Position numbers and translations under genes: made by a program. A stretch of 28,983 bases of DNA from a virus. How positions within the stretch are numbered: position 1 is the stretch's first letter; each line of letters opens with the position of its first letter. The DNA is taken from the IMG/VR virus record IMGVR_UViG_3300047330_000088, positions 1-28,983 of that record; one strand, written 5' to 3'. This document shows positions 6,637-26,351 of this stretch, one piece after another. The notes beneath the pieces were generated by a model. It saw nothing but the letters and a program-made list of their open reading frames with translations. It did not search any database and was not told the origin of the DNA.

Positions 6637-7733
6637 TGGAACGTTACCGTGCCAAGCGTCAGCAGTTGCGATGGCAGACAGGTTACGTCGGCGGCCGGCG
6701 CGGTGCGTTCGTGACTATATTCGCCATCGCTGTTCGACACTGCATTGTCGAGACGGCTGACATAGAGGGTTCCCCCGATTTTCTGTCCCTGCGCGAAAAA
6801 AAGCTGCAGCGCGGCCGTGGCTGCCTGCTGGGTCAGCGCCGTATTCGGGTTGAGGGATAAGGTGACAGGCACGGGCACCAGTGTGGCCGCGGAGACCACG
6901 GCGCGGGCCGTGACGGGCCGCACTCCGCCCGGCGTGCCGTAACTGCCTATGTAAGCCTGCACGGCGGCCACGAGCTGCGGGCTGGCGACGGCAGGGCCGG
7001 CCGCGGCGATGTAGATGCCGACGCTGCCGGCGCCGATCGCGCCGCCCACCACATTCACCAGCGCGGCGCCGGCATCGGCCGCCCATGTTGCATAGTCGGC
7101 CTGAGAGCCGCCGTTCGGCGGCTGCCGGATTTGCGCGAGAATACGCCCGCGCCAGGCGCTGGTGGTTTCCAGATCGGTCCCGTTCGCCGCACCGTTGCTG
7201 TCCAGCACAGCGCTTTGCGGCGCCAGACCGGCGATCGGGCTGACCAGGTTGAGCGTGGCGCCGGCGGCGAGATTGTAGGCGCTGCCGCCAAGCACGGAGA
7301 CGATGGGAATGCTGACCGTGCCGCCGGCGCTGACCGTGCCGGACGCCGTGGTCATATACAGCCAGCCGGCCGCCGAAGTCAGCGTGGCGCCGGACGGAAT
7401 GTTCGTCGGGCCCGCACTGGCGGCAGCGGTGAATACCGCATTGCCGGTAGCGGCCGTGGGTTGCAGCTGCGGCACATTCCAGATGTTCGCGTGCCGATAC
7501 AGCCACTGCACAGCCGTGTCGACCATCAGTTCCTGCGCCAGATTGGCCTGGTAGAGGTAGAGATCGTAGCCGGTGAGGGCGACGATCCGGCCGTTCGTGG
7601 AGGCCACCGAATTTGCGCTACGCGCGTCGATCCCCGGAAACGTCGCTTCATAGACGGCAGCGGCTTGGCCAAACAGCGTGTCCGGCGTCGGGATTGGCCA
7701 GGTCGCGTTCGATAGGGAGGTCGCGCCACTCAT
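6633..7733 (-). CDS. baseplate wedge protein J, Mu gp47-like
   Basis: 366 aa. Baseplate_J family: N-terminal FPGIDARSANSVASTNGRIVAL (34-55 in part), an Ala/Gly/Thr beta domain (FTAAASAGPTNIPSGATLTS, VLGGSAYNLAAGATLNLVSPI), the diagnostic DLETTSAWRGRILAQIRQPPNGGSQADYATWA (about 187-218 in part), and GTPGGVRPVTARAVV. The wedge holds the fibre network. ATGA overlaps on both sides. Confidence 0.93.
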   Translation of the reverse strand: MSGATSLSNATWPIPTPDTLFGQAAAVYEATFPGIDARSANSVASTNGRIVALTGYDLYLYQANLAQELMVDTAVQWLYRHANIWNVPQLQPTAATGNAVFTAAASAGPTNIPSGATLTSAAGWLYMTTASGTVSAGGTVSIPIVSVLGGSAYNLAAGATLNLVSPIAGLAPQSAVLDSNGAANGTDLETTSAWRGRILAQIRQPPNGGSQADYATWAADAGAALVNVVGGAIGAGSVGIYIAAAGPAVASPQLVAAVQAYIGSYGTPGGVRPVTARAVVSAATLVPVPVTLSLNPNTALTQQAATAALQLFFAQGQKIGGTLYVSRLDNAVSNSDGEYSHERTAPAADVTCLPSQLLTLGTVTFQ

Positions 7734-19048: not shown

Positions 19049-20014
19049 TCACGCGGCTCCCTTCTTGGCGGCCATCTTTTTCTTGTTCTCGGCGAACTTC
19101 TTCGGGTCCTGGCCCATCTTCTTGCAGACCGCCATTTCCTCTGAGGTCAGCTCGTCGCCATCGCCCACGTCGTGCTTTTGCGGTGGCATGCCGCCGGCGT
19201 GGATGGAGACCAGGGCGTTGATCTCCTTCTCCACGTTCACGGCGTCCGCCATGTGCCGCGCCACGTAATGGTCGCGCAGCGCGCTGATCGGTTTGCCCGC
19301 GGCGATCGCGCTGTCGATAAACGAAACCGCTGCTGCGCGCTGCGTGTTTGCCCGCAGCGTGTTCAGCTCGGTCTCCATCGCCACCAGGCGGGTTACCATG
19401 GTTTGCACCTCGCCGGCCGCCGCCTGCTGGCTCTGCCGCACCGTCGCCAGCTCGGCCGAGGCGGCGTGCCCAGCGGTGATCGCCGCCAGCAACGCCGCTT
19501 CGTCAGCGTCGGCCGGCAGTTTGAGGGCGGCGCGGATTGTCGCGAGGTCCAAGTGCGTCTCCTGATTTTGCTGATGCAGCGCATGCAGATCGAGGTTCGG
19601 GGTGTTGGTCAGGGCGGCGCGCAGGAGTTTCTGCACGTGGCCGGTTTTCTTGTCGGCGGTGAACACCGGGCTGATGCCGCGGTAGGCCCGCTCGCTCATG
19701 AGTTGACGGCCGGTCTCGTTCCACTCGACCCGGCCCCAGATGCCGTCCTCGCGCGCCTGCAGCTCCATGATCCAGCCGCGCGCCGGGCTCGGCGCACCGG
19801 CGAGTGCCGCGGTGTCGGTGGAATGGTTTTCGTCCAGCGGCAGGTGGCCGTCCGCCATGCTCGCGCGGATCAGCGCGGCGGCGTCGGGAACCGAATAGGG
19901 GCCGCGGCCGTCCACGCCCTTGAACGTGCCGGCGGGGATCAGATGCACCCAGTCGGGCACCTGGCCAGGCGCCGCGACCGGCTGGTCCTGGTAATGGGGG
20001 GTTGTGATCAACAT
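19049..20014 (-). CDS. I: Mu gpI-like head protease with scaffold C-terminus
   Basis: Prohead maturation protease fused to scaffold, 321 aa (Mu I about 360). The N-terminal half carries family signatures: PDWVHLIPAGTFKGVDGRGPY (20-40, a stretch of which is quoted in part elsewhere), LPLDENHSTD (58-67) with the likely catalytic His, YRGISPVF (111-118) with the likely catalytic Ser115, and AALTNTPNL (133-141). From about 150 on it becomes a helical, Ala/Gln/Glu-rich scaffold with coiled-coil character and a Lys-rich end (FAENKKKMAAKK), as in scaffolds that bind capsid. In Mu the scaffold part is also made separately as gpZ; an internal start is possible but not obvious. The start lacks a clear Shine-Dalgarno. 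It is the first gene after the terminator. Confidence 0.88.
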   Translation of the reverse strand: MLITTPHYQDQPVAAPGQVPDWVHLIPAGTFKGVDGRGPYSVPDAAALIRASMADGHLPLDENHSTDTAALAGAPSPARGWIMELQAREDGIWGRVEWNETGRQLMSERAYRGISPVFTADKKTGHVQKLLRAALTNTPNLDLHALHQQNQETHLDLATIRAALKLPADADEAALLAAITAGHAASAELATVRQSQQAAAGEVQTMVTRLVAMETELNTLRANTQRAAAVSFIDSAIAAGKPISALRDHYVARHMADAVNVEKEINALVSIHAGGMPPQKHDVGDGDELTSEEMAVCKKMGQDPKKFAENKKKMAAKKGAA

Positions 20015-20426: not shown

Positions 20427-21218
20427 TCAGTTTTCCCCGATTTCACCCGCCTCGTTTTCGGCGCCATTTTCCGTGCCCTCGACGACGGCAGCGGCCTCAT
20501 CGTCGGCCTGGTCTTCAGCGCCGTCGAAGGCCATTTCCCGCTGCTTCAGGCCGAGCCGGCGGCGCCGGTTGACCTCCGCCTTGATCGCCGTCTCGGAGAA
20601 CCCGTCGAGCATCGCCATGCGCCTGATGCGCGCATATTCGGCGCTCGCCAGGCTTTGCAGATGCCGCCCGCGCTCCCAGGCTTCGGCGTGAGCGGAAAGC
20701 CGTGGATCGGAAGGCAGCATGTATCGGCCGGCCAGGATGCCGCTGAGCTTGGCAGCCGCCTCCTCGGCGCCGTCCAGCCCCTCGATCAGTTCCAGCGCGT
20801 AGCTCAGCGCCAGCTTGGCATCGAGCGACAGGTCGGCCATGCCGTCGCGCGTCTGCGTCAGCATCATGCCACGTCGCAGCACGCGACCTTCGAGCAAGTC
20901 GGTCAGCCACTTTCGAAAACGCGCACCGATCGGCGAGTTCACGAGCATTGCCAGGAGGCGAGCGCCCCGCAAACTAAACACCCGCATGTTTTGAACACCA
21001 CGGGTCTCCGTTGGGAGAGACACAAGCCGGGTTTCCTCGGCCGTGAATTCATTCTCGTGCCGCGCGAGCAGGTTCACCAATCCGGATTGCGATTTGAAGC
21101 CCAACGGTATCACTAAACGGGTAGTCGTCACCCAGGGTTCGCCGTCGATCATGACGGCCATAAGATCGTAATTTTCGAAGCTGAGGATTGCCCCAGCCGG
21201 TTTGGTATAGGCGTTCAT
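20427..21218 (-). CDS. antirepressor-like protein (P22 AR / BRO-type N-terminal domain)
   Basis: A 263-aa protein. Residues 12-105 have the pattern of the phage antirepressor N-terminal domain: LSFENYDLMAVMIDGEPWV (12-30), then TRLVIPLGFKSQSGLVNLLARHE with a helix-turn-helix-like feel, MRVFSLRGARLLAMLVNSP (about 78-96) and RFRKWLTDLLEG. These domains usually help DNA or repressor binding and are joined to variable C-terminal parts; here that is a helical region (116-225) and a strongly acidic tail rich in Glu, Asp and Ala. The ATG at 21218 has GGGAAAAG directly ahead. It has its own surroundings: hairpin upstream, terminator downstream. Such a gene normally belongs to the early or lysogeny region, so its place between head genes is odd. 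Role in induction or in silencing a rival phage is inference. Confidence 0.72.
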   Translation of the reverse strand: MNAYTKPAGAILSFENYDLMAVMIDGEPWVTTTRLVIPLGFKSQSGLVNLLARHENEFTAEETRLVSLPTETRGVQNMRVFSLRGARLLAMLVNSPIGARFRKWLTDLLEGRVLRRGMMLTQTRDGMADLSLDAKLALSYALELIEGLDGAEEAAAKLSGILAGRYMLPSDPRLSAHAEAWERGRHLQSLASAEYARIRRMAMLDGFSETAIKAEVNRRRRLGLKQREMAFDGAEDQADDEAAAVVEGTENGAENEAGEIGEN

Positions 21219-21266
21219 CTTTTCCCAGACCTTTGCATGTTGATGAGGTTTGCGGACCGCGACTCA

Positions 21267-21291
21267 GACTCGGCTGGCCAGCAGCCGAGTC
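21267..21291. repeat. perfect 10-bp inverted repeat with 5-base loop
   Basis: GACTCGGCTG and its exact complement flank the loop GCCAG. It lies in the 138-base gap between the 77-aa gene and the antirepressor-like gene. No T-run follows on either strand. A further GCGACTC overlapping its left side can also pair with the end of the right arm, extending the symmetry. It may be a protein-binding palindrome or an RNA processing hairpin. Confidence 0.8.
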
Positions 21292-21356
21292 GCGCAAGCG
21301 CCGCGCCTGTGAATGTCATGTGTAACCTGGGGTCGCTTTCGCTTTCCCCTGCGGAG

Positions 21357-21590
21357 TCAAGCAGCTGTCTTCTTCAGCCTTAGCTGGAAGTCGAAGCTCA
21401 GCCCTTCCGCCTGCTGCATCGCTTTCGCCATGGCGGTAAAAGTCTCGACCAGCGCGGCGGCCGCGGCGGGCGTCAGCTCGAAGCCCTCCTGCTTCGGGCA
21501 GTCGCGCAGCAGGGTTTGCAGCAAGTCCAGGTGGCCCGCGACCTTGCGCGGGGTGTCCTCGGGTTTTTCGGGATCAAAATCGAAGTTCAT
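21357..21590 (-). CDS. 77-aa protein of unknown function
   Basis: A small acidic to neutral helical protein beginning MNFDFDPEKPEDTPRK; the middle (LDLLQTLLRDCPKQ, then LTPAAAAALVETFTAMAKAMQQ) is predicted helical by eye and the end is basic (LRLKK). No family recognised. It is flanked by unusual DNA: a structured element runs up to one base before its ATG and another 10-bp hairpin lies after its stop. Only a weak purine run (AAAAGCGAGCAAGCA) precedes the start, and that run is one arm of the alternative pairing, so translation may depend on RNA structure. Coding status is supported by size, composition and position rather than by homology. Confidence 0.55.
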   Translation of the reverse strand: MNFDFDPEKPEDTPRKVAGHLDLLQTLLRDCPKQEGFELTPAAAAALVETFTAMAKAMQQAEGLSFDFQLRLKKTAA

Positions 21591-21591
21591 T

Positions 21592-21777
21592 GCTTGCTCG
21601 CTTTTCTAGGGCGATTGGCTCGGCGCAACACGCGCCGAGCCGGGAGCTAGAAAACCGCAAGCTTACGGCACCACAGCCTTTAGGCTTCCGCCCTGGACAT
21701 GCGCTGTGGTCTCCCGGCTGCCCGGCGGGCAAACCTCTTTTAGTCTTCGGTCAACGTAGTGCTTGCGGATTTTCTAG
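21592..21777 (-). ncRNA. highly structured leader or small RNA with pseudoknot and alternative pairing
   Basis: This intergenic stretch is packed with matching arms (given as + coordinates, transcribed on minus). P1: 21761..21777 pairs with 21647..21662 (16 pairs, one bulge). Inside it are a GCCC/GGGC hairpin (21720..21730), a stem of 21703..21710 with 21670..21677 (8 pairs) and a stacked AGCC-GGCT hairpin (21675..21686; shares three bases with the last). A pseudoknot is possible: 21711..21717 inside the P1 loop with 21640..21646 outside it (7 pairs). A perfect 10-bp hairpin follows (21617..21641). The 3' arm of P1 can instead pair with 21592..21609 (14 pairs around an internal loop), which ends one base before the ATG of the 77-aa gene. 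This is either a regulatory leader or an orphan mobile-element RNA; see findings. Confidence 0.6.
21617..21641. repeat. perfect 10-bp inverted repeat with 5-base loop
   Basis: GGCTCGGCGC and its exact complement are separated by AACAC. There is no T-run on either strand, so it is not a standard terminator. It is the last hairpin of the structured element above and closely resembles the hairpin at 21267..21291 on the other side of the 77-aa gene (same arm and loop lengths, shared CTCGGC core). Confidence 0.85.
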
Positions 21778-21815
21778 GTCCGTAATGCGACCCTAAGAGC
21801 GCTCTGAGCGCCGCG

Positions 21816-22334
21816 TCAAGCGCCTCTGAGCAGCTCCTGCATGGTGAAGGCATACTGGTCCATGATCATCTGCTTGTCGGCCTCGCCGATGCCCAGATAC
21901 GGCCGCGCCGGGATTGTCACCCGCCGCGCGTGCACCACGCGCTTGCCCAGCTTGAACACCAGGCTGCGGCCATGCACCGGCCGGATCACGCCGCCGAACT
22001 GGTGGATGGCCGCGTAAATTTTGTTGCTGCCGATCGCCACCTGGCGCGGCCCCTGCACCTGGAACGTCACGCTGCCCATCAGGCCGCCGCGCATCGCCTT
22101 CTCGCGCAAAATGCCCGGCCCGCGCTTGAACGCGGCATAGGCCGGGTTCAGCCCTTTCCACGCCGCCCCCGCCGGGTCGGTCGCGGTGACGAACCGTTCC
22201 TGCGTCGTCTTCACCAGGCCGACGCCGACGCGCTTCAGCAGCGGCCGGAAATCGCCCGTCAGTTTTTCCACCCGCTGGAACGCCGCGCGGATCATCCCGT
22301 CATCGAGCGTCGCCTCGATCCGTGCACCTGTCAT
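21816..22334 (-). CDS. Mu gp31 (G)-like virion morphogenesis / tail completion protein
   Basis: 172 aa, the usual size for the phage tail completion family (Phage_tail_S, P2 gpS/Mu gpG). Visible hallmarks: an N-terminal helix pair, QERFVTATDPAGAAWKGL (46-63) with the conserved FxxxxDPxGxxW motif, IHQFGG (112-117), and ARRVTIPARPYLGI (136-149) with the conserved P-ARPxLG ending. It acts at the head-tail junction. It starts in an ATGA overlap with the 61-aa gene. Unlike Mu, the next gene is not the protease; a 1.8-kb insert with an antirepressor-like gene follows. Confidence 0.88.
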   Translation of the reverse strand: MTGARIEATLDDGMIRAAFQRVEKLTGDFRPLLKRVGVGLVKTTQERFVTATDPAGAAWKGLNPAYAAFKRGPGILREKAMRGGLMGSVTFQVQGPRQVAIGSNKIYAAIHQFGGVIRPVHGRSLVFKLGKRVVHARRVTIPARPYLGIGEADKQMIMDQYAFTMQELLRGA

Positions 22335-25549: not shown

Positions 25550-25755
25550 AGCGCTTCCTCCGTCGCCGCCGCGCCGATCCGGCAGGCCGTGCGCACGAGC
25601 CGGTATTTCGGGTGTTCCTGCAGCCAGGCGACGGCACGCTGCTGTGCGCCGATGCCCGCGCAGTCCCAGAAACTTTCCACCGGAACATCGATCTTCCGCT
25701 CCGGGCTGAGCGTGTTCACCAGAAGCACCACCAGCGTGAGCGTGAATGGCGTCAC
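25546..25755 (-). CDS. 69-aa protein with hydrophobic N-terminus, unknown function
   Basis: I do not recognise this protein. The GTG at 25755 is preferred over a GTG 18 bases upstream because it overlaps the previous stop (GTGA), the pattern used across the operon. Residues 2-16 (TPFTLTLVVLLVNTL) are hydrophobic and could be a signal anchor or an edge beta strand. The rest holds two Cys residues (near 33 and 59) and a WLQEHPKYRL motif (about 46-55). Similar small proteins with an N-terminal hydrophobic strand, a W..xHPxYRL motif and a late Cys occur in alphaproteobacterial prophages, without known role. Its stop overlaps the TTG start of the next gene. Confidence 0.6.
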   Translation of the reverse strand: MTPFTLTLVVLLVNTLSPERKIDVPVESFWDCAGIGAQQRAVAWLQEHPKYRLVRTACRIGAAATEEAL

Positions 25756-26351
25756 TGGCTGCAGCCTTCCCACGGATAACCAAACTTTTTTTCGAAGTTT
25801 AGAAAGGCAGCAATTCGCTCGCCGATATCGCCGTCGCCAAGGTTCACCACGAGGAGCTTTTGCCGACTGAACGCAAAGTCAATATCAATCATAAGCATGT
25901 ATTCTTCGTAGGCATCAGCTAGCAGCTGATCGGTATAATCATCGATGCTAATAGCAGACCGGCCGGTAATGTGTGTGTAGAACAGCCACTCCAGAAAGGT
26001 CATCGGCTTTCCGCCAATGTGCCGCCGGACCGACTTTATCCAGGCACCAGTGTCGCGCCGAACCAGCACGAACTTCGCGTCCTGGCGAAGATCCAATGGC
26101 ACGGGATAGATGAGGGGTGTGGGAAAGTCGGCGAAAACGTCCGCCGCCTCAAAGTATGCGGCAAACTCGCTCCACAGACAGGTTTGCAGCGCAAAGTCGA
26201 GTTGATGATCGCCTAACTCGCCGAGACGCGCCTGAACACGCGCCTCTTCTTCCGGTCCACACCAATGCGCCACCCGAAGGCCATGCGCGCCGCAGAACGA
26301 CGCGAAGCTGCGGGTGCCTGACAGATGCGGGCTGATGTTGAAAACCTTCAT
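25752..26351 (-). CDS. sulfotransferase-like P-loop protein (phage cargo)
   Basis: A 199-aa protein with the layout of small sulfotransferases. An N-terminal beta strand and loop (residues 3-16, FNISPHLSGTRSF) sits where these enzymes bind the 5'-phosphosulfate of PAPS. A second conserved block, KFVLVRRDTGAWIKSVRRH (93-111), matches the 3'-phosphate binding region (R...W..S), and DVFADFPTPLIY (71-82) matches the usual D-P segment ahead of it. The first loop lacks the usual Lys, so activity is not certain. A Shine-Dalgarno GAGGTG lies 5 bases before the ATG, and the glycosyltransferase ends 10 bases upstream. The stop overlaps the next start as GTGA. Together with that gene it suggests a carbohydrate glycosylation and sulfation step; acceptor unknown. 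An inactive relative or another P-loop transferase is possible. Confidence 0.66.
   Translation of the reverse strand: MKVFNISPHLSGTRSFASFCGAHGLRVAHWCGPEEEARVQARLGELGDHQLDFALQTCLWSEFAAYFEAADVFADFPTPLIYPVPLDLRQDAKFVLVRRDTGAWIKSVRRHIGGKPMTFLEWLFYTHITGRSAISIDDYTDQLLADAYEEYMLMIDIDFAFSRQKLLVVNLGDGDIGERIAAFLNFEKKFGYPWEGCSQ

Follow-up and report, generated by a model that had tools for sequence, protein, structure and literature searches.

What is the function of a short, multiply self-complementary stretch of DNA placed between two structural genes of a Mu-like phage? The window (the whole stretch of 28,983 nucleotides analysed) comes from a Mu-like phage, with transcription on the minus strand in the order portal, Mu F, gpG/neck protein, the element in question, and Mu-like protease I; gpG ends at 21816, the protease starts at 20014, and the element and an antirepressor cassette lie between them. 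A first-pass annotation had offered two readings: a switch-like leader that hides or frees the start of a 77-aa gene, or an orphan RNA of a mobile element, such as the HEARO/omega RNA of IscB elements. Our own reading, to which we assign a probability of about 0.85, is that the stretch comprises a C4-type antisense RNA and its two target sites, controlling a phage antirepressor operon. The RNA is best read as an unnamed C4-type subfamily that would repress this operon.

Architecture of the element

On the minus strand, a promoter-like box is followed by an upstream target, an RNA core of about 82 nt, a hairpin, a second target and the ATG of the 77-aa ORF, and then by a possible 34-aa ORF and a 263-aa Bro-N antirepressor:

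21790..21819, minus strand: promoter-like box TTGACG-N18-TAGGGT, which overlaps the gpG stop codon (sequence reading)
21761..21778, minus strand: upstream target site CCTAGAAAATCCGCAAGC (a1-like), able to pair with the antisense word save for a single bulge
21638..21719, minus strand: antisense RNA core of about 82 nt, with stems P1, P2 and P3 and linker J3/1 (MFE fold); the letters of the linker are UUUUCUAG
21711..21719, minus strand: P1 5' strand AGCCGGGAG, pairing with 21638-21646
21670..21710, minus strand: P2, an 8-bp stem with the conserved internal motif ATGTCCA-ggc..gcc-YTAAAG
21647..21662, minus strand: antisense word GCTTGCGGTTTTCTAG, part of P3 plus linker J3/1, on the 3' side of the core
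21638..21646, minus strand: P1 3' strand CTCCCGGCT, pairing with 21711-21719
21617..21641, minus strand: GC hairpin between core and downstream target, with 10 perfect pairs, overlapping the end of P1 and without a U-tract
21592..21610, minus strand: downstream target site CCTAGAAAAGCGAGCAAGC (a2/b2-like), one base before the ATG
21357..21590, minus strand: 77-aa leader ORF in an Icd/Orf45-like position
21215..21319, minus strand: possible 34-aa ORF, its stop overlapping the antirepressor start (ATGA), as inferred by sequence reading
20427..21218, minus strand: Bro-N-type antirepressor (Ant), 263 aa (profile matches)

A direct check of the sequence found every arm where the first-pass annotation had placed it. 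The arm at 21647-21662 pairs with 21761-21777 (CTAGAAAA, one bulge, CCGCAAGC) and with 21592-21609 (CTAGAAAA, a short interruption, GCAAGC), and among the three further inner stems that had been listed, 21703-21710/21670-21677 and 21617-21626/21632-21641 are exact. The suggested 7-pair pseudoknot (21711-21717 with 21640-21646) is genuine as a pairing, being part of a perfect 9-pair stem (21711-21719/21638-21646), but it is no pseudoknot: it is the ordinary closing stem P1, which crosses the alternative helix only and encloses the P2 arms ACCACAGC/GCTGTGGT and the small P3 hairpin. The isolated 82-nt RNA folds alone into exactly P1, P2 and P3 (MFE -41.2 kcal/mol).

The abundance of matching arms had been judged to be above chance, and it is: 21580-21815, read as the minus strand, has a folding energy of -101.2 kcal/mol versus -86.5 +/- 4.5 kcal/mol in shuffles (z -3.2, none of 200 shuffles as low). 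Since the plus strand folds well too (z -3.6), folding alone is insufficient to fix the strand, which was assigned from gene direction and relatives. Among 28,664 word positions on both strands, only this place and 7057-7075 reach the same score for a word with its complement on both sides; the latter, whose complements lie within 130 nt, is inside a long ORF. The duplex of the antisense word with the upstream target reaches -24.3 kcal/mol. That with the downstream target is interrupted and reaches -18.8 kcal/mol, an energy equalled by the best of 500 shuffles.

The promoter-like box was not accepted by a simple sigma-70 scan, because of its weak -10. Its spacing, TTGAC-N18-TANNGT, is common to relatives at the same Mu junction (L071, L229, L235, L248 and L254), and a TTGAC box occurs in 58 of 75 regions upstream of family members versus 16 of 68 control windows. 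Hairpins similar to the GC hairpin, read by eye, stand at its place in L229, L254 and L342. No tRNA was found.

An antirepressor operon downstream

The protein encoded at 20427..21218 matches the anti-repressor Ant family phrog_5060 (E = 2e-16) and Bro-N (3e-4, slightly short of the Pfam cut-off). The 77-aa ORF has no family match in Pfam and PHROG profile searches and no clear Shine-Dalgarno sequence; an ORF at the same place in L254 is 36% identical to it. The ATGA overlap between the possible 34-aa ORF and the antirepressor start suggests that the two may be translationally coupled; a GC palindrome (about 21266-21291) lies inside the same ORF. Single-protein searches with the 77-aa ORF and with the antirepressor returned nothing, and homologues were reached instead through an alignment of Bro-N proteins. 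Neither the window nor two other members of the family showed DNA similarity to annotated phages. Elsewhere in the window, a sulfotransferase-domain gene (25752-26351; PF17784, 7e-11) sits amid the head and packaging genes.

The clue to C4 kinship came from this antirepressor gene. A C4 antisense RNA, c4-2, c4-a1b1 or isrK lies just upstream of homologous antirepressors in most of 12 loci from annotated phages and plasmids, and among 20 genome loci with such antirepressors C4 is found above cut-off at the same place in eight. The RNA sRNA-Xcc1 also occupies this place before Bro-N genes, at 58.2 bits in L085 (above cut-off) and at 46.7 and 30.5 bits in L115 and L100 (both below).

No Rfam family reaches its cut-off in the window, ligand-type riboswitches included. 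The sole permissive match is sRNA-Xcc1 (RF02221), which aligns over its full length at 22.5 bits against a cut-off of 53 (E = 0.0023 for one genome); the same model gives 33.3 bits on L308. The C4 model (RF01695, in clan CL00128 with c4-a1b1 and c4-2) has no match in the window at E up to 10, the isrK model has none, and an Rfam scan of thirteen members gave no above-cut-off match at this RNA. We report the RNA as a new subfamily because its layout and presumed working are C4-like, yet it failed the C4 and sRNA-Xcc1 score tests.

Relatives and covariation

An Acetobacteraceae MAG (L071), found through its antirepressor, has this RNA in the same arrangement, and its antisense and target letters differ from those of the window. 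A motif-pattern search of viral contigs returned at least 120 stretches, and 77 distinct cores among the matches listed passed a stricter reading. A covariance model built from the relatives (R1) scores 74.7 bits on the window (E = 2e-14), which belongs to its training set, and matches in 29 of 240 genomes of the class of L071. With at least 77 distinct viral cores and these 29 genomes of one bacterial class, the branch is widespread. Some bacterial-genome copies (L360, L361, L362 and L366) are followed by hairpins, some with T-runs, as if they were free-standing small RNA genes rather than leaders.

In an alignment of 53 members, all eight pairs of the P2 stem changed on both sides. Paired cells amount to 93.6% versus 75.7% in shuffled alignments, the covariation score is 0.425 versus 0.111 (none of 500 shuffles as high), and 170 cells of the whole structure changed on both sides versus 59, figures to be read with the fact that several contigs are near-identical or from related phages and that the shuffles ignore relatedness. 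Sliding the partners lowers pairing to 21-53%. Because parts of P1 and the tip of P2 were already specified by the motif pattern, independent support comes from P2 and one P1 pair only. In hits outside the pattern selection, P1 varies with compensation (L182, L357, L362 and L363) and the P2 motif is kept. The first-pass annotation had named relatives without covariation as evidence against its reading; the relatives do covary, in agreement with structural constraint on the element.

The antisense word and its targets change in step

The antisense word differs by phage: CUAGAAAA in the window, UUGAAAA in L254, CUGAUAA in L071 and UUAACAA in L257. The corresponding letters recur at both targets, as CTAGAAAA in the window, TTGAAAA in L254, TTAACAA in L257 and TTCAAAA in L312 and L323, and as CTGATAA upstream and CTGATA downstream in L071. 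Judged from these letters, the antisense word and both targets co-evolve between phages.

For the window, none of 72 upstream and none of 73 downstream non-cognate sites, taken from unrelated family members, match the antisense word as well as its own. Across the family, the upstream site falls in the top 5% of its own non-cognate comparisons in 61 of 72 members. Complementarity is weaker downstream, where 31 of 73 members reach the top 5%; part of the reason is that pairing in many members is split between two short blocks. In 63 of 67 cases the second downstream block falls within or next to an SD-like triplet, at a median of 7 nt before the ATG or GTG. A small independent set of model hits supports the upstream target (4 of 42 non-cognate comparisons as good). 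The complementarity score did not support the downstream target in this set (17 of 42 as good), because in several copies the pairing is divided between two distant blocks or a nearby gene is lacking.

Duplex energies calculated over the whole loop region showed no specificity because GC-rich pairing elsewhere dominates, and complementarity scores were used in their place. The exact word GCTTGCGGTTTTCTAG has seven matches in viral contigs, none with the structure, which is consistent with chance.

A probable exchangeable module before unrelated antirepressors

Of 102 proteins whose genes lie just after family members, 15 match ORF6N, 13 Bro-N, 10 P22_AR_N and 8 Rha in Pfam, and PHROG anti-repressor families predominate; the downstream antirepressors are of several unrelated kinds. 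The RNA occupies the same gpG-protease junction in five other kinds of Mu-like contig (L229/L256, L235, L248, L254 and L323), and the cassette after it varies, with a Bro-N antirepressor in L229 and an HTH protein in L235, L248 and L254. In the closest relative by gpG (L002), the module is absent beside gpG. Because of this presence and absence, and of the differing cassettes at the Mu junction, we infer that RNA and cassette form an exchangeable module.

Two further observations concern these loci. The HTH protein that follows the leader ORF in L235, L248 and L254, in place of Bro-N, is of the Cro/C1 type and may be either antirepressor or repressor. In another Mu-like contig (L335), two Bro-N antirepressor homologues stand one on either side of a family member.

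Proposed mechanism and alternative explanations

Under the C4-type reading, a transcript would start just upstream of 21778 and carry the upstream target, the compact P1/P2/P3 RNA, and the second target over the start of the 77-aa ORF. On the model of the C4 of P1/P7, the core would be released, and the word in P3 and the linker would then pair in trans with the leader of its own operon and block translation of the leader ORF. The antirepressor would be blocked as well, via coupling or premature termination, so that the prophage repressor would stay active; were the RNA lost or sequestered, antirepressor would be made and the phage induced. How the balance falls may be set by the upstream copy, which could engage the antisense word either in cis or on the precursor, in the manner of P4 seqA or IsrK (PMC4825925).

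The switch-like leader of the first-pass annotation survives in part: alternative pairing controlling access to the 77-aa start stands, refined to a discrete antisense RNA domain with a copy of its own target on either side, in a C4/P4-CI-type arrangement, and with the 77-aa ORF and the antirepressor together as the operon under control. In a purely cis-acting version no free RNA would arise, and the middle arm would alternate between the upstream and downstream copies on its own transcript, opening or closing the 77-aa start. Such a version would fit the fact that one molecule can form either pairing, with upstream cis pairing preferred to the free antisense fold in the MFE structure of the whole leader, and that the window has no U-tract terminator directly after the RNA. 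We nevertheless regard it as unlikely. As in C4, which is a processed free RNA (PMC5320573), the P1-P2-P3 core is a compact domain that has been conserved in closed form and has a covarying stem; terminator-like hairpins follow some genome copies (L361 and L362); and the related sRNA-Xcc1 has been observed as a discrete 88-nt RNA (PMC2996969).

More improbable still is the opposite sign of control, with a short RNA binding the longer transcript, opening translation of leader ORF and antirepressor, and promoting induction. IsrK of Gifsy-1 is such an activator, and its isrK-orf45-anrP operon shares this layout (PMC4825925); isrK-like matches lie upstream of C4 in related loci. Here the antisense word covers the translation start itself, which favours blocking, and the isrK model is without match in the window, though the upstream site could still play such a role beside a C4-like core. 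As for HEARO/omega guide RNAs, terminal parts of mobile elements or other transposon ends, the inverted and direct repeats and the presence of the module in some Mu-like phages and its absence in others would suit them. We consider such an origin barely credible and reject the HEARO assignment, since the window gives no HEARO match at E up to 10, no IscB-type gene or product is found at the site, the operon encodes a Bro-N antirepressor, and the relatives are tied to antirepressor genes.

Wider significance

C4 is the textbook case of RNA-controlled phage immunity. It has so far been catalogued through a few Rfam models, and the new branch scores below all their cut-offs. Our results suggest that unrelated phages use the antisense control of antirepressors as a general plug-in. 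They also offer a test case for the evolution of heteroimmunity, where an antisense word and both its targets must change together.

Comparison with known systems

IsrK of Gifsy-1 (RF01394) and the P4 CI RNA with seqA/seqC share with the window a small RNA within its own target transcript, two-sided complements and lysogeny control (PMC4825925). They differ in that IsrK activates and P4 CI acts by termination, and neither has a sequence match to the window. HEARO/omega RNAs share nested stems and a similar size, and differ in their gene association.

RNase P frees the published C4 RNA, which is built of stems P1, P2 and P3 and whose a' and b' loops bind both upstream of the ribosome-binding site and at the site itself (PMC5320573). 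The genes under its control in phage P1 are icd and ant (PMC8201110). The RNA of the window shares with the C4 of phages P1 and P7 a length of about 80-90 nt and a closing stem around two inner hairpins, with an unpaired linker before the P1 3' strand, as given by the MFE fold of 21719-21638 and by covariation in relatives. The antisense word lies in P3 and the linker, and complements a site upstream and the translation start of the leader ORF. A small ORF followed by an antirepressor is likewise shared, as judged by gene order and families only, and homologous Bro-N genes carry C4. The two RNAs differ in P2, where the window has ATGTCCA..YTAAAG and C4 a UUCG hairpin, and in their P1 and antisense letters.

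With sRNA-Xcc1 the RNA of the window can be aligned end to end in P1, P3 and the linker. Both complement a site upstream and another ahead of the next ATG, and sRNA-Xcc1 too is found before Bro-N genes (L085, L115 and L100). They differ in the P2 tip alone (AAUACAAUACCC.. instead of AUGUCCAGGGC..). Since above-cut-off sRNA-Xcc1 members (L370, L371, L384 and L386; alignment A5) match the window in P1, P3 and the linker and differ in the P2 tip, the two are probably sister groups.

Known sRNA-Xcc1 members often precede symE in integron cassettes, a pairing noted in the literature with the relation described as unclear and no mechanism given (PMC12444791). Among the matches listed, sRNA-Xcc1 lies just before small ORFs in L367, L369, L382, L383, L388 and L392, and SymE_toxin (PF08845) was recognised in 5 of 33 proteins scanned downstream of sRNA-Xcc1 copies. 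These RNAs carry words complementing an upstream site and the leader before the ATG (TTCAAAA..GCAAAAGG in L369). Complementarity of this kind suggests that sRNA-Xcc1 may be a C4-type antisense antitoxin of symE, and offers a concrete mechanism for its position beside that gene. We give even odds to a broader view, in which C4, sRNA-Xcc1 and the unnamed family of the window form one superfamily of interchangeable antisense modules with a fixed P1-P2-P3 chassis and a fast-changing antisense word, placed before unlike dangerous genes (Bro-N, ORF6N, P22_AR and Rha antirepressors; SymE-like toxins). Each gene would be kept off, a new word would mean a new immunity specificity, and the P2 motif AUGUCCA..YUAAAG would be a contact site for RNA or protein.
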